From contig CP013099.1 of assembly GCA_001447805.1 (NCBI GenBank), forward strand, positions 2,923,181-2,987,180: a stretch of DNA of 64,000 bases, in the 5' to 3' direction. The notes below the pieces were generated by a model. The model searched no databases. It worked only from the letters and a program-made list of their open reading frames with translations, and was not told the origin of the DNA. Origin of the DNA: Candidatus Tenderia electrophaga (lineage in GTDB: Bacteria > Pseudomonadota > Gammaproteobacteria > Tenderiales > Tenderiaceae). Shown here piece after piece: positions 37,176 through 50,486 of the stretch. Each line of letters opens with the position of its first letter. The first letter of the stretch is position 1. Position numbers and translations under genes: made by a program.

Positions 37176-38468
37176 TTAAACCACTCCCTTGAGATCGACA
37201 ACATACATCTGACGCTCACCGGAGTGAACGGAATCAATACAGACTTTGCTCCCGTCACGACTCCAGCGCGGATGCAGATCACAACGGATCTCACCCCACC
37301 ATTTATCCTTGGGCGAGCGGAGTCTGGCAAGGTCAGTGCGTTTACCCCGATCCGGGTCAAACAACATCAAGGTACGCAACTGGTAAACATCGGGATAGGT
37401 ATCATTCAGCACCCATTTGCCGTCCGGTGAAAAGGTGCAGTGACCGTCTTCAGTGAGCACCGATTCACCGACTACCGAAATCGAGCCGTCCCCGTCATCA
37501 AGAAAAAGAAAGCGGTCGCGGCCGTCCGGGTGGCGCGCCCAGATCATGATGCGACGGTCATCCAGCCAATCGTAATGCGAAACCATGCCGGTATCCAGCA
37601 GACAGCGCAGCTCAGAACCATCTGGCTTCGCGGTATAGAAGCGAACTGACCAGCCGGCCTCACCCACACGCCAGATATGAAAAAAGGCGAAACGTCGGCC
37701 GCCACGACTGAATTGAATGTGATTGATCCAGTGGTGGGCGCCTTGCATCCCCTCTTTGGGATTCAGGGTCGCGAGTTGCTCCAGGGAGATGATCAGGCGT
37801 GACGTCCCCCCCTCCAGGTCCATCAGGTGGATCCCGTCATCAACCGGGTGCGGCTCATCCGCCCATGGATCGGTGACACCGGCATAACCGTAGCCGGGGC
37901 GGTGGCGTTGCAGCCGCGCAAAATTCAGACTCAAGGCCTGCTTGCCATCCGGTGCTACGGCATAGACGGGGCGCTCGTATGTCTTTACCTCGTCGCCGTT
38001 GACATGCCTTACCACGGCCACCAAACGACCGTCGCGGCGGTCATTGTGAATGAACAGCCGCTCCGGATCGGCCGGATGCCATTGCGTCATCGCCCCCTGC
38101 TGCCAGTTCCAAGCATGACCTTCCGATAAGGCTTCGAAGCGATTATCGTCATCGACATGAACAACACCGATCGTGACCCTATCGTCGGCGGCGGGCGGGC
38201 GATCGTTGAAGTCCACTTCATGCGCCAGGAGCAGTCGGCCGGAAAGATTCCAGGGTGTCTTTTCGTAATAACCGAAAAAGTGATGTTTCGGCCCGGTAGT
38301 GACGGGGCGAACGATCTCCCGGCCGCGACCAAAGCGTATCAAGCGATAAAAGGCGGGGAACCGTTCAAGCGCGCGCAGCTCCATCCAACACTCGAACTCG
38401 TGCTGAACACGCCACGGGACGCATTTCTGTTCAAATACAAAGGATCTCAGCTTGCCGGCCAGACTCAT
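37176..38468 (-). CDS. Cytosolic beta-propeller protein of unknown function
   Basis: 430 residues without signal peptide or membrane helix. It contains repeated WD40/PD40-like blades: MTQWHPADPERLFIHND, YAVAPDGKQALSLNF, HIQFSRGGRRFAFFHIW, CTFSPDGKWVLND and LHPRWSRDGSKVCIDS. The N-terminal FGYYEKTPWNLSGRLLLAHE and the HHWIN and WSRDG segments recall oligogalacturonate-lyase-type propellers, but I cannot assign active-site residues. ATG 38468 starts MSLAGKLRSFVFEQK. It lies in the glycan operon between a GT2 gene and the deacetylase, so a role in sugar handling is inferred only from context. Confidence 0.75.
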   Translation of the reverse strand: MSLAGKLRSFVFEQKCVPWRVQHEFECWMELRALERFPAFYRLIRFGRGREIVRPVTTGPKHHFFGYYEKTPWNLSGRLLLAHEVDFNDRPPAADDRVTIGVVHVDDDNRFEALSEGHAWNWQQGAMTQWHPADPERLFIHNDRRDGRLVAVVRHVNGDEVKTYERPVYAVAPDGKQALSLNFARLQRHRPGYGYAGVTDPWADEPHPVDDGIHLMDLEGGTSRLIISLEQLATLNPKEGMQGAHHWINHIQFSRGGRRFAFFHIWRVGEAGWSVRFYTAKPDGSELRCLLDTGMVSHYDWLDDRRIMIWARHPDGRDRFLFLDDGDGSISVVGESVLTEDGHCTFSPDGKWVLNDTYPDVYQLRTLMLFDPDRGKRTDLARLRSPKDKWWGEIRCDLHPRWSRDGSKVCIDSVHSGERQMYVVDLKGVV

Positions 38469-38504
38469 GAAGCACCCTTGTAATTGCGCCGCACCCACGC
38501 CATG

Positions 38505-39473
38505 TCAGCCTCCCCGCCTGTCAAGCGCAGCGATAAACCTTGGATATAAAGCCTCAGGTAACAGCAACGCCGGCAGGATATAGCGCAGATCTTTGAGCTG
38601 CCAACATCGCATGGGAAACACCATACGAAAAATTTTCTGGGCGGAAACCAGGTCACGTCGCCAGTATGCGTTATAAGCTCGCTTGAGCAGGGCGCCGTCG
38701 ATCAATTCACGCAATCGCCCGGCCGACAAATGCACCACCAGCTCGGGATGGTTGGCAACAAATTTTTTCTTCACATCCCGCACATTGCGCGCCTGGCGCC
38801 ACTCATTGGACGTAATCTGCCCCACGCCGTGATGACGGTAAAACGCCAATACCTCCTCGACCAGGACGATGGGCCTGGCCACCGCAATACGCAGCCAGAG
38901 ATCATAATCCATACAGGTCGACCAGTTGAGGTCGAAGCCGCCCACCTCGATCATCACATCACGCCGTACCAACGCGGCATGAATGGGCCAGGGGGACGCC
39001 GAGCGCAGAAACATCTCCGCCTTGTTCTCGGGGCTATAAACCGGGGGAATATATGGCTCGCCGCTTTTTTCCGCCAGCCCTACATTCTGCCAACCACAAT
39101 ACGCCAACGCGGCATCCGATCCTACGAGACCGGCATGTAATTTTTCCAGGCAGTCCGCCGCCCAGTAATCATCCGCGTCCAGAAACGCGACAAACTCGCC
39201 GCTGGCCCGGGTCATGCCGTTGTTGCGCGCAGGATAAGGACCCTGATTCTCCTGCTCCACGAATACGATTCTGTCGCCGTACTCGGCGAGTATTTCCCTG
39301 GACCCGTCGGTGGAGCCGTCATCGACAACGACCAACTCCACATCCGGATAACTTTGATTCAGTACACAGTCGATGGACTCGCGCAGGTGCCGCTCGGCGT
39401 TATAGCACGGCATGATGACGGAAATACGCCCCGCAACTTGCGGCTTCCGAACTGATTGCTCTTCCATATTCAT
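38505..39473 (-). CDS. GT2-family glycosyltransferase
   Basis: 322-residue GT-A enzyme with ISVIMPCYNAERHLRESIDCVL, LVVVDDGSTDGSREIL, GPYPARNNGMTRASGEFVAFLDADDYW and STCMDYDLWLRIAV. The layout matches the GT2 at 32562, including a tail with several basic and aromatic residues. It is the second gene of the long minus-strand operon that starts with the WbsX-like gene. Donor and linkage are unknown. Confidence 0.9.
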   Translation of the reverse strand: MNMEEQSVRKPQVAGRISVIMPCYNAERHLRESIDCVLNQSYPDVELVVVDDGSTDGSREILAEYGDRIVFVEQENQGPYPARNNGMTRASGEFVAFLDADDYWAADCLEKLHAGLVGSDAALAYCGWQNVGLAEKSGEPYIPPVYSPENKAEMFLRSASPWPIHAALVRRDVMIEVGGFDLNWSTCMDYDLWLRIAVARPIVLVEEVLAFYRHHGVGQITSNEWRQARNVRDVKKKFVANHPELVVHLSAGRLRELIDGALLKRAYNAYWRRDLVSAQKIFRMVFPMRCWQLKDLRYILPALLLPEALYPRFIAALDRRGG

Positions 39474-39540: not shown

Positions 39541-40614
39541 CTACCCCTGAAGCTCCTTATCAAGAACCTCAAGGTAAGCCCGCCCCCAACGTAGATCAGG
39601 CTCGAGATGGTTCCCCTCCGCCCATTCATTCCAGGCCTTGATAAACAGGATCTTATGCTCTGGTTCGTGGTCAGCCACCTTGGACATCGCATCTTGCAGA
39701 TGACGCCGAAACAACCCCGGGGTGGAGCCGTGGAAGACGAGCCCATTCATTGCGGCCCGCGGCGTGTTGTCCCAGTTTGGTAACACACAGGGATAATCCA
39801 CGAAATCCGGCTTAATTTTGCGCAACAGAAACGAAAGCATTTCCTCATAACTGTACACAGACAGTTGGTGCCGCCCACGCCCCAGCAACACCTTAAGCTT
39901 GGCATCCCAATACCGGATGGGAACCCGACCGTCACGGGGTGGCAGCTTCTGCATCATGCAGGCATCGAAGCCGCGCTCGCGCGGATCCCAGCTGGGATCA
40001 AAGTGGGCCACGCCAACCAGATGCAGCCCCTTCAACCCCGCCTGATGCGCCCGTTCCCGCCAGTAATCGGTCACCCGCGTTATGTCGGGGATATGGTCAG
40101 GCTTGTACACAAGGAACAGCGGCTTGCCGTCCACCGTGATGTAGCGTGGGTCGGTAAACGCCTTCAACAGAAAATCGAAATGGGCGGCATGGTCCTCCAT
40201 ACCGGGATAGGTCTGCTCGATCAGGATCTTGTCCGGACAGCCTTGCCAGATGCTGTTCCAGCTATGATTGGCCCAGCACAGGCAAAAGGGAAAATCAGGC
40301 GCGCCGGAACTCAATATCTCGTTGACCGGGCGCTCCAAGATACGCCGCCCGCCGAACCAGTAATGGTAATAGCAGAATCCCTCCACACCGTACTCCCGGG
40401 CCAGCTCGGCCTGGGCGGCGCGGGCTTCCGGCAGGCGCAAATCATAGAAACCCAGATCCGCCGGCACATGAGGCTGATAATGCCCACGAAACAACGGCTT
40501 GGCTTTGGCCGTATTGGTCCATTCGGTAAACCCCTTCCCCCACCACTCATCATTCTCTGGAGTTGGGTGAAACTGGGGCAAATGGAAGGCGATGGCACGA
40601 GCTTTTTTATTCAT
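39541..40614 (-). CDS. WbsX-like glycan protein (GH99-like domain)
   Basis: 357 residues of the WbsX family, found in O-antigen and capsule loci and related to GH99-type (beta/alpha)8 enzymes. Seen are AIAFHLPQFHPTPENDEWWG, GFTEWTNTAKAKPLF, GVEGFCYYHYWFGGRRILERP, FCLCWANHSWN, the FLVYKPDHIPD strand and the closing FIKAWNEWAEGNHLEPD. It probably acts as a glycosyltransferase or endo-acting glycan enzyme in the cytosol. It is the first gene of the minus-strand operon running down to 27159. Confidence 0.88.
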   Translation of the reverse strand: MNKKARAIAFHLPQFHPTPENDEWWGKGFTEWTNTAKAKPLFRGHYQPHVPADLGFYDLRLPEARAAQAELAREYGVEGFCYYHYWFGGRRILERPVNEILSSGAPDFPFCLCWANHSWNSIWQGCPDKILIEQTYPGMEDHAAHFDFLLKAFTDPRYITVDGKPLFLVYKPDHIPDITRVTDYWRERAHQAGLKGLHLVGVAHFDPSWDPRERGFDACMMQKLPPRDGRVPIRYWDAKLKVLLGRGRHQLSVYSYEEMLSFLLRKIKPDFVDYPCVLPNWDNTPRAAMNGLVFHGSTPGLFRRHLQDAMSKVADHEPEHKILFIKAWNEWAEGNHLEPDLRWGRAYLEVLDKELQG

Positions 40615-41156: not shown

Positions 41157-42458
41157 GTGACCACACAATCACACGCGGAAAAGATATTTTGCATCGGCCT
41201 GTCCAAAACCGGCACCACTAGCCTGGCGGCCGCATTAAGGCAACTCGGCTATACGGTCCGGGACAATCTCGGCGTTAGCCGGTATATCCCCGGCGACCTG
41301 AGCTGTGTCGACGAGGCCGAAATTGAGGCCCACGACGCCTTCACCGATACCCCCATCCCCAGCCTCTATCGTGAACTCGACGCCCGATACCCCAATGCCA
41401 AATTTATTCTCACCATCCGGGAAAAAGGGCCCTGGCTAAAATCCTGCAGAAAGCAGTTCACTCAACGCCATGCCAAGGCGCGTCACGACGCCATCAACGA
41501 GCTGTTCATCGATATGTATGGCAGCGCCTGGTTTGACGAGGAAAAATTTTCCGCAGGCTATGACAGATTCGTGGAGGGGGTAAAAGACTATTTCAAGGAC
41601 CGCCCCGATGACCTGCTGATTCTGGACCTTTGTGACGGCGATGACTGGGAACCACTGTGTCGCTTTCTCCACAAGCCGATTCCCGACGCACCGATCCCCG
41701 TCACAAATGTCACCAAAATCCAGTGGATCAAGGCGGAAGATGTCGCCGACATCGCCAGAAAGGCGGGCGCGAATATCCCTACCGCCGACTCACTGAAACA
41801 TTCAAGCGGCTCAGCACCCAAAGGCATGCTGGGCCGCCTCGGCGACAAGGCCCGCAACACCGTCATCGCACGGCGCCGCGCCAGGCTACCCAACATCCTG
41901 GACACCACCTATCAAACAATCGTGGACAACCTCAAGTCCATCGACGCCTCAATACCCGTATTGTCCGAAAAAACCAAGGACACGCCCTACTCAGACCGAA
42001 AGCAATGGAGTCATGCCTGGCTGATCGACACCTTCAAAGGGAAGGACCTGCTGCTCCGGGGTGATAATGGCTTCAGCATCAATATCGCCCTGGTCGAAAA
42101 CGGCAATGTGAGGATGGGGGTCGTCTACTTCCCGGCGACCGATACTGTCTATTACACGAAAAACGGGAGCGTCAGCTATAAACAGTCAGGGGCCGATGAG
42201 GCGCTACAATTGGGCCATGGAGATTCCCGCAGCGACGCATCCTCAGCAACCGCTGAAACAACTCAGGGTAACGCGCCCCTAACGCTATGCAAAGCGGCGG
42301 AAGGCGATACACAACAACCGTACATACGGGGGCAATTCAGAGAATGGGAAATCGCCGCCGCTAACGCCATTCTAAATGGAAGTGGAAAAAGGATTAAAAT
42401 TCCCGAGACCGAGCAGGAACCCAAATACAACAAAGAAACACTAATGATTAACATCTAA
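41157..42458 (+). CDS. Sulfotransferase fused to a degenerate CysQ-like domain
   Basis: 433 residues from GTG 41157. Residues ~9-190 are a sulfotransferase with P-loop-like GLSKTGTTSLAAAL (14-27), ILTIREKGPWLKS in the 3'-phosphate region and ILDLCDGDDWEPLCRFL. After a basic linker, residues ~248-430 align by eye with the PAP phosphatase CysQ: IPVLSEK, WLIDTFKGKDLLLRGDNGFSIN, IALVENGNVRMGVVYFPA and EWEIAAANAIL. The catalytic DPLDGT is changed to DTFKGK (Lys294 for Asp, Lys296 for Thr), WD to WE398, and the N-terminal ~50 residues of CysQ are missing. The second domain is probably inactive and may bind PAP. Confidence 0.85.
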   Translation: MTTQSHAEKIFCIGLSKTGTTSLAAALRQLGYTVRDNLGVSRYIPGDLSCVDEAEIEAHDAFTDTPIPSLYRELDARYPNAKFILTIREKGPWLKSCRKQFTQRHAKARHDAINELFIDMYGSAWFDEEKFSAGYDRFVEGVKDYFKDRPDDLLILDLCDGDDWEPLCRFLHKPIPDAPIPVTNVTKIQWIKAEDVADIARKAGANIPTADSLKHSSGSAPKGMLGRLGDKARNTVIARRRARLPNILDTTYQTIVDNLKSIDASIPVLSEKTKDTPYSDRKQWSHAWLIDTFKGKDLLLRGDNGFSINIALVENGNVRMGVVYFPATDTVYYTKNGSVSYKQSGADEALQLGHGDSRSDASSATAETTQGNAPLTLCKAAEGDTQQPYIRGQFREWEIAAANAILNGSGKRIKIPETEQEPKYNKETLMINI

Positions 42459-42497
42459 CGGTATAACAAATACCTGATTGACCCTACCAATTTACTA

Positions 42498-43385
42498 GTG
42501 CAGATTCTGAACCGCATAACTTCAAAATTACAACATGCCATTTTTGATATTAAGCACATCTTTTCAAAAGACGTTCTTATATTTTATTGGCGTGGCGCCA
42601 ATGATCAAAACTTCGGCGACCAGCTCAATGTTGATCTAATTAGATATTACGGCTTTCAGCCCGTCCCCTGCGCACCGGGAAAAGCCGAAGTCTTCGCCAT
42701 TGGCTCCATTCTGCATAGGTATGCAAAAGGCCACGACGGCATCGTTGCCGGCTCCGGCTATATCAAACCCCCGCAACATATCACTATTAACCCCAAGAAT
42801 ACTATCGCCTTACGTGGTCCGAAAACAAATTCTTATTTCAAAAAAGACGATATACCGCTATGCGACCCAGGTATCCTCGCGAAACGAATATTCGGCTCAT
42901 TCAGTACACAACACCAAATCGGTATAGTCCCGCATTTTCGCGACCAAGACGATCCCCAGCTGCTTAGCTTTCTGAATAATCACCCGGCTATAAAGCTGAT
43001 TGATGTATTGCAAAAGCCCGAGGCGGTCGTCAGGGAGATCGCACAGTGCGAGACCATCTTATCGTCCTCACTACACGGATTAGTAGTCGCGGATTCGTAC
43101 AACATTCCCGCCGTATGGATAAATTTCGATGATCGACAGGAAGGCGGAGAATTCAAATACCTCGACTATCACGGATCTCTCGGCATTGAAAGGCGGAGAA
43201 TATCCTTAGGGGCGACCCCAGACCTCGGCATGTTGTTGGACCAGGCAGTAACGGTCGACCCTCGAGTTACGGATCAAAAAATAATGGAGCTGGAACGCGC
43301 ATTCAGCACACTAAGGCACCGTCTTATCATTCTTCGTATCCACAGAGTGTTCAAGGCGGTATTATCCACAATTATGCATAGGTAA
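42498..43385 (+). CDS. Polysaccharide pyruvyltransferase-family protein
   Basis: 295 residues from GTG 42498. It has FYWRGANDQNFGDQLNVDLI at the N-terminus, IALRGPKTNSYF and the C-terminal signature ILSSSLHGLVVADSYNIPAVWIN typical of the pyruvyltransferase/GT-B-like family. Family members attach ketal pyruvate to sugars from phosphoenolpyruvate. The sequence is clearly more A/T-rich than the genes to its left. It follows the sulfotransferase fusion by 39 bases on the same strand. Confidence 0.85.
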   Translation: MQILNRITSKLQHAIFDIKHIFSKDVLIFYWRGANDQNFGDQLNVDLIRYYGFQPVPCAPGKAEVFAIGSILHRYAKGHDGIVAGSGYIKPPQHITINPKNTIALRGPKTNSYFKKDDIPLCDPGILAKRIFGSFSTQHQIGIVPHFRDQDDPQLLSFLNNHPAIKLIDVLQKPEAVVREIAQCETILSSSLHGLVVADSYNIPAVWINFDDRQEGGEFKYLDYHGSLGIERRRISLGATPDLGMLLDQAVTVDPRVTDQKIMELERAFSTLRHRLIILRIHRVFKAVLSTIMHR

Positions 43386-43437
43386 CGGCAATAATATATC
43401 TTGACCGGCCTTCTTATATACCCGAGAGCCGCATATT

Positions 43438-44649
43438 CTATGCGAACAGCTTCCTGAGTCGATAGGGAACATATTTGTTAATGAATGTCGACTTGCCGCT
43501 AGATAGGGGCGCGGGAATATTGTTGACCATTTTGGCGGACAACTTCTGCGACAAGGACGGCGAATAGCCTATTTTTTCGGCATACTCCCTTATTTCTCTA
43601 ATAAATGGATCATCGCTTTTACCCAACAGCGTCTTTACAATATAGGCTTCGCGGACTTCATACCATTTATTCAAATCAAATACATTCGCAAACTTGTCAA
43701 GCTCGCCCAGCAACTCCAAGGTAAACAGCGTCCGGGTACACTTCCAACATGCCGAACAGTTCATTCCATCCTTGCTGCCCACACATACATTCAGCCATTT
43801 ACTGACTCCCTCGATCATTGCCACACGGCCGGTTTTCTCTACACGAGAATACTGCCCGCCGGTAGAGATGCAATCCAATGTCTCGGTGGACAACAAGTGA
43901 ACAGCCATGGCGTCGGCATACGCCATACTATTGGTGTTTCCAACAAAGGCATCCTGATACCTGTACGCCGATGCGTAGTAATACTTGGAAAATAATTTTT
44001 GCAGCAACAGGACGGCCGATACGTTTCTCGGCACATGAGTCTTCTGAAAACTGGATGTAAATATTTCATTAATATTTGAATCAATCTTAATGAAGGGTAT
44101 ATCCATGACATTCGGAAACCCTTTGATCAAATCATATCTTAAATTGAATAGCCGCCGCGCATGCTCCGCATCGTTCCCCAAACCATGTGACCCGACATTA
44201 TTGAAGGCGAAGTGAGTAATTTTGAATCCGTCCGGCACGTCTGCCGCAATCAAATGGTCATAAACAGCGCAAAACGAATCAATACCGGCGGAGAACCCGG
44301 TGACGACGGCTCCGGCACAACTGTATGCACCTTTATCGAATGAATCCGGGACTATGCTGACTTCGTTTAGAGACGGATCTGTCCGTCTGAGGATAGGAAT
44401 ATAATACTGGGTTAGATTATAGAATAATTTTTCTGAAACAGCGCCTTTGACGACCACATCCTCTCTGGCCTGCATCGCCAGATAGATCAGACCGACCAGG
44501 AAGGAATCAAGCTTCTCGGTGGTCAAATATTCTTTATATCTTTTATCGACCGAATACCACAGGCGTTCTTTCTTGCCGGCATGCTCAATAAGCGAGGAGA
44601 CAACCACAATATCGCCGTTTTCACAAATCTCGACGGGATTAATTCGCAT
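43438..44649 (-). CDS. PP-loop ATPase with QueC-like cysteine site
   Basis: 403 residues. A PP-loop (ATP-pyrophosphatase) motif VTGFSAGIDSFCAV lies at 117-129, corresponding to SGG-x-DS. Near the C-terminal third, C289, C298, C301 and C304 (VCV..., NCSACWKC) form C-x8-C-x2-C-x2-C, which I recall as the spacing of the QueC zinc site. Middle segments include FVGNTNSMAYADAMAVH. PP-loop enzymes adenylate a carboxylate, carbonyl or base and let ammonia, sulfide or an amine attack. The substrate here is unknown; the context is polysaccharide modification. No queuosine genes are near. Confidence 0.8.
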   Translation of the reverse strand: MRINPVEICENGDIVVVSSLIEHAGKKERLWYSVDKRYKEYLTTEKLDSFLVGLIYLAMQAREDVVVKGAVSEKLFYNLTQYYIPILRRTDPSLNEVSIVPDSFDKGAYSCAGAVVTGFSAGIDSFCAVYDHLIAADVPDGFKITHFAFNNVGSHGLGNDAEHARRLFNLRYDLIKGFPNVMDIPFIKIDSNINEIFTSSFQKTHVPRNVSAVLLLQKLFSKYYYASAYRYQDAFVGNTNSMAYADAMAVHLLSTETLDCISTGGQYSRVEKTGRVAMIEGVSKWLNVCVGSKDGMNCSACWKCTRTLFTLELLGELDKFANVFDLNKWYEVREAYIVKTLLGKSDDPFIREIREYAEKIGYSPSLSQKLSAKMVNNIPAPLSSGKSTFINKYVPYRLRKLFA

Positions 44650-44692
44650 TTCATAACACCGTTAAAGCCTACTTCTTTTACATATATCGACC

Positions 44693-45754
44693 CTAACGCA
44701 TGAGAATTGAACGTTTACCCAACTTCGATGAATTTTTATTGACGTATTTTTCCGTAACCATCAGCACCTGCACTGTGCCGCCGGGCGCTTGCTCTATACG
44801 ACGAACAAACGTCTCCGGTCGAAGATGCTCCTGGTAATATGAAATAACATTATTACGCAGCTCGGCGATTTGCCTCTCTCCCATGCCAAGCACGTGCCGC
44901 ACCTTCCTGGCGAGGTCGTCCGCATCGCCGAAAGCGATACAATTCTTCATGTGCTCAAGCCCGGGCGAGAACCACTCGGGATAATTGATAACCGGAATCA
45001 CACCCAGCGCCATCGCCTCGATCACGTTATGACACATGGGCATACATATCCCCGGCGGCGAAAGAAAGAAATCCGCCCGGGAAAGACGATCAAGCCAGAG
45101 CGCGTCATCCACCCACAGCCTGGTGGTGTCGAGTACCACGAACTTGTTGAGATAATCACCAGCAAAGGCGGCTGACAGCGTCGTTTCATCATCGAGGATC
45201 AATGAGTCGTCCGGCAGCCGCTGAAGCAGGATCTCGATTATCTCCGGTCGCGACAGCTTGACATCAGGATATTTAACCTTTGGTCGGTTATACCCATTGG
45301 TGTCACCGGAGAAAAACAGCCTGAGCCGCTTTTGACTCTTCCGCAAACACCGTAAAACACCATACATATCTTTTCCATGATGCCCCCAATGGACCGGGTG
45401 CATCGGGTAAGGCATCAAAATCGGTTTTTTCGTTAACCAATACGACGAGAAAATATCATATCCCAGCTGAATCTTGCGCTTCCATTTTTTACCGGCACAC
45501 TGCTTATCTTCGCGATCAAACAAATACACAAAGTCCTGACTATTGCCTGGAATAGCATCCGACACCTCGAGTCGGCCGAGAGATAGCGTTAACTGCCCTA
45601 TCCTTGTATCCGGATCAATACTGATCGTGTCGGATAGAATGACTCTGTAACCGCTCACGACAAACACATTTAGAATCGAAAAAATAAGCCGCCCACTCTC
45701 ACTCAGGATATGCTTATCCAGGAACCTCACATAAATGGCGGGGGCGTCATACAT
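44693..45754 (-). CDS. Exostosin-like (GT47-type) glycosyltransferase
   Basis: 353 residues. The C-terminal half contains RADFFLSPPGICMPMC followed by HNVIEAMALGVIPVINYPEW and a DADDLARKVRHVLGM segment. This pattern (S-x-F-x-L-x-P-x-G, then E-A-x2-x-G-x-I-P-V-I) resembles exostosin-family GT47 enzymes, known from heparan and plant wall synthesis. The N-terminal half is not recognisable beyond a likely GT-B fold. Alternatives are other GT-B families. It lies in the A/T-rich part of the island, 43 bases after the GT4-like gene's stop region on the same strand. Confidence 0.65.
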   Translation of the reverse strand: MYDAPAIYVRFLDKHILSESGRLIFSILNVFVVSGYRVILSDTISIDPDTRIGQLTLSLGRLEVSDAIPGNSQDFVYLFDREDKQCAGKKWKRKIQLGYDIFSSYWLTKKPILMPYPMHPVHWGHHGKDMYGVLRCLRKSQKRLRLFFSGDTNGYNRPKVKYPDVKLSRPEIIEILLQRLPDDSLILDDETTLSAAFAGDYLNKFVVLDTTRLWVDDALWLDRLSRADFFLSPPGICMPMCHNVIEAMALGVIPVINYPEWFSPGLEHMKNCIAFGDADDLARKVRHVLGMGERQIAELRNNVISYYQEHLRPETFVRRIEQAPGGTVQVLMVTEKYVNKNSSKLGKRSILMR

Positions 45755-45798
45755 ACGAAAGCCTTAACACAACATTACGCATGTCTAAGAGTTGCGGA

Positions 45799-46845
45799 TC
45801 AGAGAGCAGCAAGAATTCGCTCCCAAACACTGACCAACACCTGCTCTTCTCTGGCCGGCGAATATTCCGACGCAATAAACTCGGATGCTGCGCGGCGCTC
45901 GGCGGAAAAATACGCCTCATCCTGATTACAGGCGTCGATAATATGTTCCAACTGACGTGCATAGCCGATGATATCACCATCATTAATGGGAAAAGAAAAC
46001 TCCGGCATGAAAAACTCTTTCCCTCCCCAACCGTGATAACCCATCACGATGCAACCACAGGCCATAGCCTCGGCAGCCGGAAGTCCAAAACCCTCGCGGA
46101 ACCCAAAGCTAAGAAAGATCATAGATTCTCGCATCAGCGCCGCAACTTCTTGCTGCGGCCTGTTGATAAAAGGCACCACCTCGAATTCTTCGAGCTTGCC
46201 GCGAAACTTTAGAATATTTACAACCTGCATTGCGTCGGCCTGAGACTTAATGCGGGAAAAACAGATTTGCTTCTTCTTTTCCTTCTGAAAGAAAAACATA
46301 TCCGGATCTATCGAGAGAAAAAAGCGCTGGACATTGGCGCCAGGAAAGGCGTAGTGCACATACTCTTCGCAGTGTTCTGAATTTACAAGAACCGCCCTAA
46401 CAGATTCATCACGATAGGGCGTCTTAAGATTGCTCTTTGAGTATGAGTACCCCTTAAAGGTAAGAAAACCATTCTGGTTAAGGATAACTTTCGGTATACC
46501 CTGCCCAATCTCCGCCAAATCCGGGCCCTGGGTCTCCGTCATAACCAGAATATCATTGCATCCGATCGCAGCCGAGGCACCACCGATAATGGGAATATCA
46601 GTCAGGCCATCGTCCTTGACACACCTCCTGATCTTATTACGTGCCCGGAGAACAAGAGATCTTAGCGGAAAGCGGGTATAAGCTATCCGGGTATTATTGG
46701 GAAACCAAGTACACCTGAACCCATTTTTCTGGTGCAGAACGTAGGCAGGTATGCCATGGCTATTAAGAATATCTACATGGCGATAGATAACACGGATACC
46801 ACCGGTTGGATTGTCACTATGAGGACATAGATAGTAAATCGCCAT
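45799..46845 (-). CDS. GT4-like glycosyltransferase
   Basis: 348-residue GT-B protein. It begins AIYYLCPHSDNPTGGIRVIYRHVDIL and has LVMTETQGPDLAEIG, VILNQNGFLTF, VLVNSEHCEEYVHYAF and the donor-binding region LSFGFREGFGLPAAEAMACGCIVMGYHGWGG (split here: EGFGLPAAEAMACG is the core). It probably adds a sugar within the glycan repeat unit. It starts nine bases after the sulfotransferase stop on the same strand. Codon use is A/T-rich. Confidence 0.82.
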   Translation of the reverse strand: MAIYYLCPHSDNPTGGIRVIYRHVDILNSHGIPAYVLHQKNGFRCTWFPNNTRIAYTRFPLRSLVLRARNKIRRCVKDDGLTDIPIIGGASAAIGCNDILVMTETQGPDLAEIGQGIPKVILNQNGFLTFKGYSYSKSNLKTPYRDESVRAVLVNSEHCEEYVHYAFPGANVQRFFLSIDPDMFFFQKEKKKQICFSRIKSQADAMQVVNILKFRGKLEEFEVVPFINRPQQEVAALMRESMIFLSFGFREGFGLPAAEAMACGCIVMGYHGWGGKEFFMPEFSFPINDGDIIGYARQLEHIIDACNQDEAYFSAERRAASEFIASEYSPAREEQVLVSVWERILAAL

Positions 46846-46854
46846 AGCAGATCT

Positions 46855-48303
46855 CTATTCCTGTTCCGCGTCTTGTTGTGCAACATCCGACGCAGAGGAC
46901 GACCACAAACTAATACGTTTTAATAGCATCTGGGTGAAATTCGGATCATCCGCGCGCAAACATTTATCAATCCCGGAACCGTAATATTTCTTTAGCTCGG
47001 CCAACGATATTCTTTTTTCACAGTTTAAAACTGTAACTGTGGACATCTTCACCATGACCTTCTCGACCATGCGGCGTAGCCACCATTTTCTAGATAGCTC
47101 AGGAAACGGCTGAAACACCCACACCAGCTTGGCATTTGCAAACTTTAATCTCAACAACAATAAGACAACTCGCATAATAAATACTATTGACGTCACTTTA
47201 CTCGTAGACGATGGATGCGGCAGAGGCACTTCCTCAGTAACCCACAGGTCAGGCATCGACCCACAGACCGGATCAAGAAGAGAGCCAACGTTCTCCAGTC
47301 GCACAGAGTGACTTCCATTAGCTATAGCTTGCAAGATAGTGTCATATAGATCTCGGTGTTGGCGAGATACAAGCATCAGCTCCGAGGTGCGCAAAACAAG
47401 AGATGGAATCGTGCTTGTTGTTATTAAGTCATACCCCCATGCTCTTAATTCATCTTGCGCAATCATCTCGGACACCCGTAATTTATCGGGTAAAACATTA
47501 TTCCGCCAAGCCGCCACCTTAGATTTATCAACAGACATTGCGGCTTGATTCATATGACTTCCGGTCGTATCAAGCAACGTCTTCTCTGTACCGTCAGGAA
47601 CTAGCATACGATCGTCGAACGGCACTCCCAGAAAGAGGCAGATCTGTCGAACGATAGTTCCTGGATTCTGCACAAGATCCTCATAACGAATCGCCAGCGT
47701 ATTATTGTCATTTTCTGCAAATGTGCGGCCGCCAGAATTTGCCTGCCTCCACAGCCATAAGTTTTCATAGAAATTTGAACTTCCAAATCTAACCTTTGTC
47801 AACGAATGCGCAACATCTCTACCATCCCTAACAATAATGATTATTGGTGCTTCTGGAAAAAGGAATCGAATGAATGGAAGACAAAGAATATGATTAGGTG
47901 TCTTTTCAATCCACAATGACTTCCCATAGTGCTCACTGATTGTTTCACCTAATGCAATAAAAGCTTCTCTACCGGTAACGACCTGTCCTCCAACTCGCTC
48001 ATAGACCAGGTGAGCCGGCTTATTCCAGTCTGCCGTGGGCTTCATACTATCCACAATTTTGTATAACGAATCCGGCCATTCACGCTCAAAACACTCAGGC
48101 CCACCTGGGTATCTAAAGAGTCTGTATAGAAAATTCGTTTCAGGTGTTACACATATTTCCGAATGACGATTCAAAATTGCCGAGACGAGCGTCGTACCAC
48201 TGCGCTCCTTACCAACAACAAAAGCAGGCGAATGAAAAGCAGATCGACACTGAGAAACATTGCCGGCAGAGCGATCAAAATCAACAGTATGGGTGGTATT
48301 CAT
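46855..48303 (-). CDS. Sulfotransferase with a long C-terminal extension
   Basis: 482 residues. The first ~295 are a complete sulfotransferase: FVVGKERSGTTLVSAILNRH (28-47), WIEKTPNHIL, IIIIVRDGRDVAHSLTKV and LAIRYEDLVQNPG. The remaining ~185 residues are unusual: a hydrophobic stretch VTSIVFIMRVVLLLLRL, then ANAKLVWVFQPFPE and VTVLNCEKRISLAELKKYYG. These resemble the acceptor half of a GT-B glycosyltransferase, with no donor half. The extension may be a gene-fusion remnant or a membrane-binding part. Visible A/T-richness (one sampled 60-base line is 35% G+C) suggests foreign origin. Confidence 0.83.
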   Translation of the reverse strand: MNTTHTVDFDRSAGNVSQCRSAFHSPAFVVGKERSGTTLVSAILNRHSEICVTPETNFLYRLFRYPGGPECFEREWPDSLYKIVDSMKPTADWNKPAHLVYERVGGQVVTGREAFIALGETISEHYGKSLWIEKTPNHILCLPFIRFLFPEAPIIIIVRDGRDVAHSLTKVRFGSSNFYENLWLWRQANSGGRTFAENDNNTLAIRYEDLVQNPGTIVRQICLFLGVPFDDRMLVPDGTEKTLLDTTGSHMNQAAMSVDKSKVAAWRNNVLPDKLRVSEMIAQDELRAWGYDLITTSTIPSLVLRTSELMLVSRQHRDLYDTILQAIANGSHSVRLENVGSLLDPVCGSMPDLWVTEEVPLPHPSSTSKVTSIVFIMRVVLLLLRLKFANAKLVWVFQPFPELSRKWWLRRMVEKVMVKMSTVTVLNCEKRISLAELKKYYGSGIDKCLRADDPNFTQMLLKRISLWSSSASDVAQQDAEQE

Positions 48304-48397
48304 AATATCAGGACGAGCGGCTAATACAGATCCGCTTTAATTCTTAGCCGGAAGAGAACAAACATAACTCTTTTATATTTAACCAGGCAACTTAACG

Positions 48398-49186
48398 CTA
48401 TTGTTGCTTTCGAGCTACTAACTGACGAAGCCCAGCACGTTCAGTAACGGGAATATCAAATGGTGGTTTCTCTTGATACAACTGAAATCCACACTTTTCC
48501 AGAAAGGCACATATTTTTAGATTATCCGCACCCAAATGGGGATGAAGATCGAGAAGCAACACCAAGTCTGGATAAGTTCGTAGCGTATTTTCCGCCCCTT
48601 TTAGAACAAGCATCTCGGCTCCTTCCACATCGATTTTCATGACACGAATAGGCGTCTCCATAGCTTGTTTTTCAAGTACGCTATCCAGGGTACGAGTCTG
48701 CACCGTAATTACACCTTCTGCCCGGTTCTTTTGTCCAGGAATCAAAGTATGCCACCCACTCTTACTGCCAAGATGTAGTTCAGCAGTACCGTTTTCATCG
48801 CTTAATGCCATTTCGAAAAGCATAACGTTAGTGTAGCCATTACGACGAGCGCTTTTGTTAATCCAATGACAATTGCTAGGCTCTGGTTCAAACGCCAACA
48901 CCCGCCCTTCTTCGCCCACGAGCTTTGCGGCTAATAAAGTAAAATCCCCTTTATTTACGCCCACATCAACAAAACAGTCTTTTTCCCGCAGAAAATGCTT
49001 AAATGCCGCGTGTTTTTCTGGTTCATATCTCCCCATCGCCCGCGCAAGCATCATCTGGGATTCGGAGATATCCAGATAGATATCACCTCCAGGAACACGA
49101 TAAGGAAAATAGAAAGATGGAATAAACCGCGCCCAGCTATCATGATGTTTGAGGAGCCACTCGGCAAATACCATTTTCGCTTTCAT
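48398..49186 (-). CDS. FkbM-family methyltransferase
   Basis: 262 residues with a SAM-dependent fold of the FkbM type: FVDVGVNKGDFTLLAAKLVG (motif I), VLAFEPEPSNCHWINKSA, VMLFEMALSDENGTAELH, the TRTLDSVLEK segment, IRVMKIDVEGAEMLVLKGA and LLLDLHPHLG. FkbM enzymes O-methylate sugars and polyketides. It is the gene after wzt on the same strand (four-base gap), so it may place a methyl group on the glycan, possibly as the end mark read by the Wzt carbohydrate-binding domain. Confidence 0.9.
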   Translation of the reverse strand: MKAKMVFAEWLLKHHDSWARFIPSFYFPYRVPGGDIYLDISESQMMLARAMGRYEPEKHAAFKHFLREKDCFVDVGVNKGDFTLLAAKLVGEEGRVLAFEPEPSNCHWINKSARRNGYTNVMLFEMALSDENGTAELHLGSKSGWHTLIPGQKNRAEGVITVQTRTLDSVLEKQAMETPIRVMKIDVEGAEMLVLKGAENTLRTYPDLVLLLDLHPHLGADNLKICAFLEKCGFQLYQEKPPFDIPVTERAGLRQLVARKQQ

Positions 49187-49190
49187 TAGC

Positions 49191-50486
49191 TCAGTCCTTA
49201 ATTTTACGTGGCAGGATCGCTGATGTCTCCGGCAAGGTTGCGGGCACAGAAAAAAATTGGTTACCTAGCAATTCCCACGAGGCGTCTACATTAACAAGCC
49301 TCATCGGTGCCTGACGAGACTCTTCACTCGTTGGTCGAACCGAGAACATTCTTAATGTTTCACCGGAAAATATTACCCGCCGATACTGATCAAAAACTGC
49401 AATCCGGATACAGTAGACCCCAGGCGCTATCGGGTAAGATGGAATACAGCATTCAACCTCATATAATCCCTGGGGGAAATCCGGCCGGTTTTCGAATATG
49501 GCCGTTGAGTTAGCGGTAAGATATACAAAGTCAGTTGTATGCGTTCCGATTACGATTTCCGGCTTCTTCACAGCCTGGTTAAATCTAAATGCCACCCGGA
49601 TTCGCAATGGCTCGCCGGAATGAATCTCTTCAGTGGTTTCGCCGTGAGTATCTAGCAATACTATTTTCTCAACGTCGACTTCTCCCGAGCTTTTTATTCT
49701 TTTTCTCGACCCATGTTCCTGCGTGGAATCGGAATGAATTTTGTCATTACTACGTTGATAAAATAGGGTGCAAACTTCGCCCGAGTCTCCATCTTTCAAG
49801 ACTTTTCCATGATCAAGCAAAACAACGCGGGAACACATTCTTTCAACCTGCCTGATATTGTGACTAACAAGCAGTACAGTCCTCCCCTGCCCCTTAATTA
49901 CATCCTCCATCCGATCAAAGCACTTACGTTGAAAGGCCAGATCACCCACCGCCAGTACTTCATCAACGATCAGTATCTCCGCCTCGATACTAGTGGCGAT
50001 GGAAAAACCCAGCCGCACCTTCATGCCCGAGCTGTAGCGCTTTATCGGGGTGTCTATGAATTCTTCCAGTTCGGCGAATGCGACAATTTCGTCGACTTTC
50101 TTCTTGATCTCGGCACGGGGGATGCCGAGGATGCTGCCGTTGAGATAGATATTTTCACGGCCGGTGAGATCCCCAATCAGGCCCGCCCCCACCTCGATCA
50201 GCGGCGCCACCTTGCCGCTGACTTTAACCGAACCGCTGGTGGGCTGAACAACATTGGACAGGATTTTAAGCAGCGTACTTTTGCCGGCGCCGTTTTGCCC
50301 GATGATACCGACGACTTCGCCCGGTTCCACCTTGAAGTCGATGTCGTCCAGTGCCTTGAATACTTTGCGTTGCGGCGCAGGCTGCCCCTTCAGCCTCGCC
50401 ATCAGACCTGTCAGATTGTCTTTGAAACTGGTGAGCTGTCCCAGGCGGAATTCCTTGCTGACGTGATTGACTTCAATTGCTGACAT
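49191..50486 (-). CDS. wzt: Wzt-type ABC exporter ATPase with C-terminal glycan-binding domain
   Basis: 431 residues. The ATPase domain (1 to ~245) has Walker A IGQNGAGKST (62-71), the QPTSGSVKVSG loop, signature YSSGMKVR, Walker B ILIVDEVLAVGD and LLVSHNIRQVERM, as in KpsT/Wzt. The last ~180 residues form a beta-rich domain (VEKIVLLDTHGETTEEIHSGEPLRIRVAF, LYEVECCIPSYPIAPGVYCIRIAVFD) like the Wzt C-terminal domain that recognises capped polysaccharide ends. It works with the permease gene upstream to export an undecaprenyl-linked glycan across the inner membrane. Confidence 0.93.
   Translation of the reverse strand: MSAIEVNHVSKEFRLGQLTSFKDNLTGLMARLKGQPAPQRKVFKALDDIDFKVEPGEVVGIIGQNGAGKSTLLKILSNVVQPTSGSVKVSGKVAPLIEVGAGLIGDLTGRENIYLNGSILGIPRAEIKKKVDEIVAFAELEEFIDTPIKRYSSGMKVRLGFSIATSIEAEILIVDEVLAVGDLAFQRKCFDRMEDVIKGQGRTVLLVSHNIRQVERMCSRVVLLDHGKVLKDGDSGEVCTLFYQRSNDKIHSDSTQEHGSRKRIKSSGEVDVEKIVLLDTHGETTEEIHSGEPLRIRVAFRFNQAVKKPEIVIGTHTTDFVYLTANSTAIFENRPDFPQGLYEVECCIPSYPIAPGVYCIRIAVFDQYRRVIFSGETLRMFSVRPTSEESRQAPMRLVNVDASWELLGNQFFSVPATLPETSAILPRKIKD

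Follow-up and report, generated by a model that had tools for sequence, protein, structure and literature searches.

CysQ normally clears PAP, the inhibitory by-product of sulfotransferases. In Candidatus Tenderia electrophaga, a CysQ-like domain that has lost its catalytic residues is fused to a sulfotransferase, which raises the question of what such a domain contributes to the very enzyme class that its ancestor served.

A sulfotransferase–CysQ fusion and its distribution

The gene lies in the window (the whole 64,000-nucleotide stretch of DNA analysed here) and forms a single open reading frame of 433 codons, with a GTG start and without an internal stop (Table 1). Its product comprises an N-terminal Sulfotransfer_4 domain (residues 9–190) and a CysQ-fold domain (approximately residues 193–433), both of which score above the curated Pfam cut-offs. 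The Sulfotransfer_4 match (PF17784; E = 5e-34, 118 bits against a threshold of 22.8 bits) bears out the sulfotransferase that an earlier note, written from the sequence alone, had placed at these residues. The same note regarded the C-terminal half as CysQ-like, and the profile searches agree: the Inositol_P superfamily (PF00459) is matched with E = 6e-10 and 39.6 bits against a gathering threshold of 27, in line with the predicted fold, and the NCBIfam CysQ model TIGR01331 is matched with E = 1.4e-25 by the whole protein and 1e-26 by the C-terminal part alone. The TIGR01331 score of 90–94 bits is, however, well under the equivalog cut-off of 228.8. Among PDB sequences, the C-terminal part is matched best by Bacteroides CysQ (3b8b; E = 3e-18). 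At the sequence level, the match to CysQ is colinear in order and far beyond chance.

The same full-length fusion is encoded in six other genomes, giving seven in total, and both domains exceed the Pfam cut-offs in all six homologues. Two carriers belong to the same genus, and their fusion proteins are 59% and 51% identical to the window protein along the full length (one is a Candidatus Tenderia sp., the other a Chromatiaceae genome). The remainder are two gammaproteobacterial or pseudomonadotan MAGs, Methylomicrobium sp. wino1, whose chromosome is complete, and genome G294. Searches at genus and family level returned fusions in G001 and G003. The earlier note had proposed looking for the same domain order elsewhere and had named a gene-merging error as a possible refutation. 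Six independent full-length homologues, including that on the complete Methylomicrobium chromosome, rule out an assembly or sequencing error joining two genes. The fusion is nevertheless rare, occurring in 2 of 369 Gammaproteobacteria sampled, and a sweep of 398 Pseudomonadota gave a fusion-level match in the genome of origin only. Since the scan of named genomes used short patterns, the count is a lower bound (at least seven genomes) and further fusions probably exist. Searches of phages, plasmids and viral contigs did not find the full-length fusion. Literature searches for a sulfotransferase–CysQ fusion or for inositol-monophosphatase (IMPase) pseudoenzymes returned nothing relevant; in the earlier note, too, this architecture was not known to have been described. 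The fusion thus appears to be a new combination within known families, for which we found no published description.

Table 1. Positions of the fusion gene, its protein elements and neighbouring genes in the window
Feature	Position	Strand	Basis or occurrence
Fusion protein, sulfotransferase + pseudo-CysQ, 433 aa	41157..42458	+	ORF, Pfam, NCBIfam, homologues in six other genomes
Sulfotransfer_4 domain, residues 9–190	41181..41726	+	Pfam E = 5e-34; PDB matches Schistosoma SULT, Cpz8, SgdX2
PAPS 5'-phosphosulfate loop GLSKTGTTSL, residues 14–23	41196..41225	+	Near-invariant in six fusions; also present in L040
Presumed 3'-phosphate-binding element, Arg88...Ser96	41418..41444	+	Both residues invariant in six fusions
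Retained CysQ helix alpha-1, residues 193–206, A..AG	41733..41774	+	Aligned with CysQ N-terminal helix; helix 193–204 in model
Divergent basic linker and long helix, residues 208–262, replacing CysQ hairpin/VTxAD motif	41778..41942	+	
Pseudo-CysQ core, residues 251–433	41907..42455	+	Inositol_P, CysQ and Foldseek matches
Degenerate DPLDGT, Asp291-Thr-Phe-Lys294-Gly-Lys296	42027..42044	+	CysQ alignment
Degenerate GSxLK phosphate site, residues 372–376, Lys to Thr376	42270..42284	+	CysQ alignment
Degenerate WD motif, Trp397-Glu398	42345..42350	+	CysQ alignment
Partner glycosyltransferase, GT47/RXYLT1-like, 353 aa	44693..45754	-	Weak Pfam match; found at each of the seven loci
WbsX-type glycosyltransferase adjoining the fusion	39541..40614	-	Pfam E = 1e-142; also near the fusion in L017, L018, L020
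Polysaccharide pyruvyl transferase family member, immediately downstream of the fusion	42498..43385	+	Pfam E = 1e-9

The sulfotransferase domain and its polysaccharide cluster

The N-terminal domain carries both the PAPS loop and the Arg...Ser element, the latter of which presumably binds the 3'-phosphate, as in SULTs generally. The whole domain, including these two elements, is shared with Schistosoma SULT (4mua/5tiz), Cpz8 (9kf1/9kf2) and SgdX2 (8y9p), none of which possesses the CysQ domain present in the fusion. With both elements conserved, the domain looks intact, and we infer that it is an active PAPS-dependent sulfotransferase. Other Sulfotransfer_4-like domains (L022, L026, L027, L028 and L029) occur in different contexts, C-terminally in repeat-like proteins (Planctomycetes MAGs, Halovulum) and inside a glycosyltransferase-like protein (Planktothrix).

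The surrounding cluster serves polysaccharide synthesis and contains several glycosyltransferases, sulfotransferases, a WbsX protein and a pyruvyl transferase. One neighbour accompanies the fusion: at all seven loci, a homologue of the GT47-like glycosyltransferase, 45–48% identical, is encoded no more than a few genes away. This gene was found in 3 of 95 relatives and in 2 of 369 genomes of the class, in each case exactly those with the fusion, where the two surveys overlap and the counts ignore kinship. The genome also retains a separate intact CysQ (L002) and encodes an APS kinase, so that other proteins account for removing PAP and supplying PAPS.

Several further features of the locus were observed. 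A Sulfotransfer_2 protein is encoded near the fusion in three loci (L018:10586-11269, L021:7481-8191 and L040:3127-3813; Pfam match for the L018 copy), so that the cluster is served by several sulfotransferases. A Sulfotransfer_3 protein in the window (46855–48303) has about 190 extra C-terminal residues beyond any Pfam match. The propeller-like and GT2-like products of window genes 37176–38498 and 38505–39473 correspond to one 748-residue protein in Methylomicrobium sp. wino1 (L020:14276-16522), suggesting that they work together. A family of approximately 660 residues is encoded near the fusion in three loci (L019:5498-7477, L020:11658-13622 and L021:3178-5238), and a Pfam scan of two of these three members gave no match. 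The G+C content falls to 0.46–0.48 over window positions 42000–50000, compared with 0.55–0.62 in the flanks, which suggests that this part of the polysaccharide cluster was laterally acquired.

Predicted fold and evolution of the C-terminal domain

The earlier note had also proposed structure prediction and comparison with CysQ. AlphaFold predicts a CysQ fold with high confidence (mean pLDDT 91 and pTM 0.80 for the whole protein; 90 and 0.88 for the C-terminal domain alone), although the input alignment consisted mostly of true CysQ sequences, which could bias the model in favour of this fold. In Foldseek, the top PDB match of the domain model is again CysQ 3b8b (E = 7e-13, TMq 0.69), with a high root-mean-square deviation of 7.8 Å over 274 columns. 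The domain thus shares sequence family, predicted fold, helix 1 and core residues with CysQ 3b8b and 5djk. It differs from them in lacking the catalytic, metal and PAP-phosphate residues, in having a long helix in place of the hairpin, and in being fused to a sulfotransferase.

The CysQ N-terminus, which the earlier note described as lacking, is missing as regards the hairpin and the VTxAD segment, whereas helix 1 is retained in all seven fusions, with Ala203 and Gly204 invariant; in L019, the Pfam Inositol_P match begins at profile position 13. The replacing segment is divergent (17% identity over residues 208–250) and carries a net positive charge in all seven fusions. In the model it lengthens helix 2 at its N-terminal side, giving a single helix at residues 224–262. 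We considered that this linker might form an amphipathic, membrane-binding helix and did not adopt the idea, as the hydrophobic moments are inconsistent between members.

Residue conservation was read from an alignment of all seven fusions and 31 CysQ proteins that stand alone in related genomes. Eleven core residues (P267, R281, W284, W288, A311, L312, G321, V322, P326, W397 and N425) are kept in all seven, and a few conserved residues are specific to the fusions: Lys335 in six of seven, and His286 and the His403 column in five each. These residues, together with the co-conserved glycosyltransferase, are consistent with a remodelled pocket that binds a new ligand, such as a glycan or a lipid-linked acceptor. 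We consider this explanation unlikely, since no clear new polar cluster is formed, and most residues conserved among the fusions are common to CysQ and look structural.

The seven C-terminal domains share one side of a branch that is supported at 96/83 and recovered in 98% of bootstrap trees. This topology is compatible with one fusion event, but several long branches keep it short of proof. Mean pairwise identity across the fusions is 65% for the Sulfotransfer_4 domain and 35% for the pseudo-CysQ part. The window copy lacks about 20–30 residues found in other fusions, and the L040 fusion ends slightly early. The faster evolution and these shortened copies would fit a passive remnant, in which a decaying CysQ domain persists only through its attachment. 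Such a remnant is nevertheless improbable, because the frame is open and the core residues are kept in seven lineages, the fold is predicted with high confidence, and third codon positions change most. Between the window and L017, the differences in the pseudo-CysQ part are 0.56, 0.37 and 0.29 for positions 3, 1 and 2, which indicates purifying selection, weaker than that on the sulfotransferase part.

Loss of the CysQ active site and a candidate docking role

In the inositol-monophosphatase superfamily, metal is bound by the first of the two Glu residues in the EE motif, by both Asp residues of DPxDGT and by the Asp of the WD motif (PMC2080633). INPP1 adds its Asp54, equivalent to the VTxAD Asp, and its Lys294, which holds the second, non-hydrolysed substrate phosphate (PMC7948987). 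By motif reading, the GSxLK Lys of CysQ would be homologous to INPP1 Lys294. The Arg of YxR presumably also takes part in PAP binding, as in Hal2p.

All eight key positions are kept in 30 of the 31 CysQ proteins, whereas the fusions keep 11 of 56 cells. The Lys of GSxLK and the Asp of WD (each 31/31 in CysQ) and the Arg of YxR (30/31) are absent from all seven fusions, as is the VTxAD Asp. The SEE Glu survives in the window protein only, the Thr of DGT in one fusion, and the second Asp of DPLDGT in three; its first Asp and its Gly are each kept in six. Neither the metal ligands, nor the VTxAD Asp and DGT Thr, nor the PAP-phosphate Lys and Arg are present as the sets that characterize CysQ. Retention is higher at the other conserved columns than at the key positions (4.1 versus 1.7 of 7, p = 0.0007). 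The replacements differ between lineages, with no common substitute. An Arg at the GSxLK Lys column of L020 is probably a gap artefact, the gapless reading giving Ala. In the window protein, Glu271 and Asp291 are the only metal ligands left; Lys294, Lys296 and Glu398 mark lost catalytic positions, correctly identified as such in the earlier note. Its judgement that the domain is unlikely to hydrolyse PAP is upheld by these losses, which very probably preclude catalysis. The loss of catalytic and ligand residues, the kept core, the predicted fold and the purifying selection mark the domain as a conserved, very probably inactive CysQ pseudoenzyme module. A full-text search pairing pseudoenzymes with the inositol-monophosphatase/CysQ family found no paper, indicating that they are little documented there.

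The losses also bear on the proposal of the earlier note that the domain acts as a PAP sensor or product-binding regulator. A degenerate domain that still binds PAP (or PAPS) and regulates the sulfotransferase would explain why a CysQ descendant is joined to the PAP-producing enzyme itself. The retention of the first Asp and the Gly of DPLDGT is in keeping with it, and in INPP1 the loss of Asp54 alone abolishes activity with little change in substrate affinity (PMC7948987). However, with the second-phosphate Lys, the YxR Arg and most metal ligands gone, a CysQ-like PAP site is not visible in the fusions, although PAP or PAPS might bind in a different mode. The absence of the WD Asp, the near-absence of the SEE Glu and the lineage-specific replacements weaken the proposal further, leaving it a slim chance. 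A still-active PAP phosphatase with altered chemistry, to which the DPLD retained in L019 and L040 might point, is highly improbable given that the WD and VTxAD Asp residues are gone in all seven fusions, the DGT Thr in six, and the genome holds a separate intact CysQ.

The computations show that the fusion exists and is conserved, that the CysQ active and PAP sites are lost, that a CysQ fold is predicted and that the gene is linked to that of the glycosyltransferase. From this we hold with moderate confidence that the protein actively sulfates glycans and that its dead CysQ domain has a structural or docking function. The PAPS-dependent sulfotransferase would attach sulfate to a sugar in the surface polysaccharide that the surrounding cluster produces. 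An ancestral full-length CysQ would have fused once to the sulfotransferase and then lost its catalytic hairpin, most of the residues that bind metal and those for the PAP phosphates, while helix 1 and the core fold persisted. Since the fold is kept while catalysis and the PAP site are lost, the pseudo-CysQ domain may have been retained under selection for a structural or docking role. The co-occurrence suggests the GT47-like glycosyltransferase as the likeliest partner, or else the complex of the growing glycan; alternatively, the protein may associate with itself or contact the true CysQ. Against docking, Lys335, His286 and the His403 column might instead belong to a newly acquired binding site. 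More tentatively, the pseudo-CysQ domain might be an obligate docking or allosteric subunit through which the sulfotransferase is coupled to a single dedicated partner, the GT47-like glycosyltransferase; the two proteins would then form a module for sulfated glycans that is new to bacteria.

A pseudoenzyme would thus be fused to the enzyme class whose inhibitor its ancestor destroyed, with even the inhibitor-binding residues lost, offering a clean test case for the conversion of a metabolic helper into a structural or regulatory part. Together, the fusion and the glycosyltransferase may serve as a marker for sulfated bacterial polysaccharides of a family not yet characterised. A precedent for an IMPase-fold protein that works through protein and RNA contacts is SuhB, which binds NusA and RNA in the rRNA antitermination complex (6tqn, 6ib8; PMC6614801); SuhB is a separate IMPase protein, whereas the domain described here is fused to a sulfotransferase.
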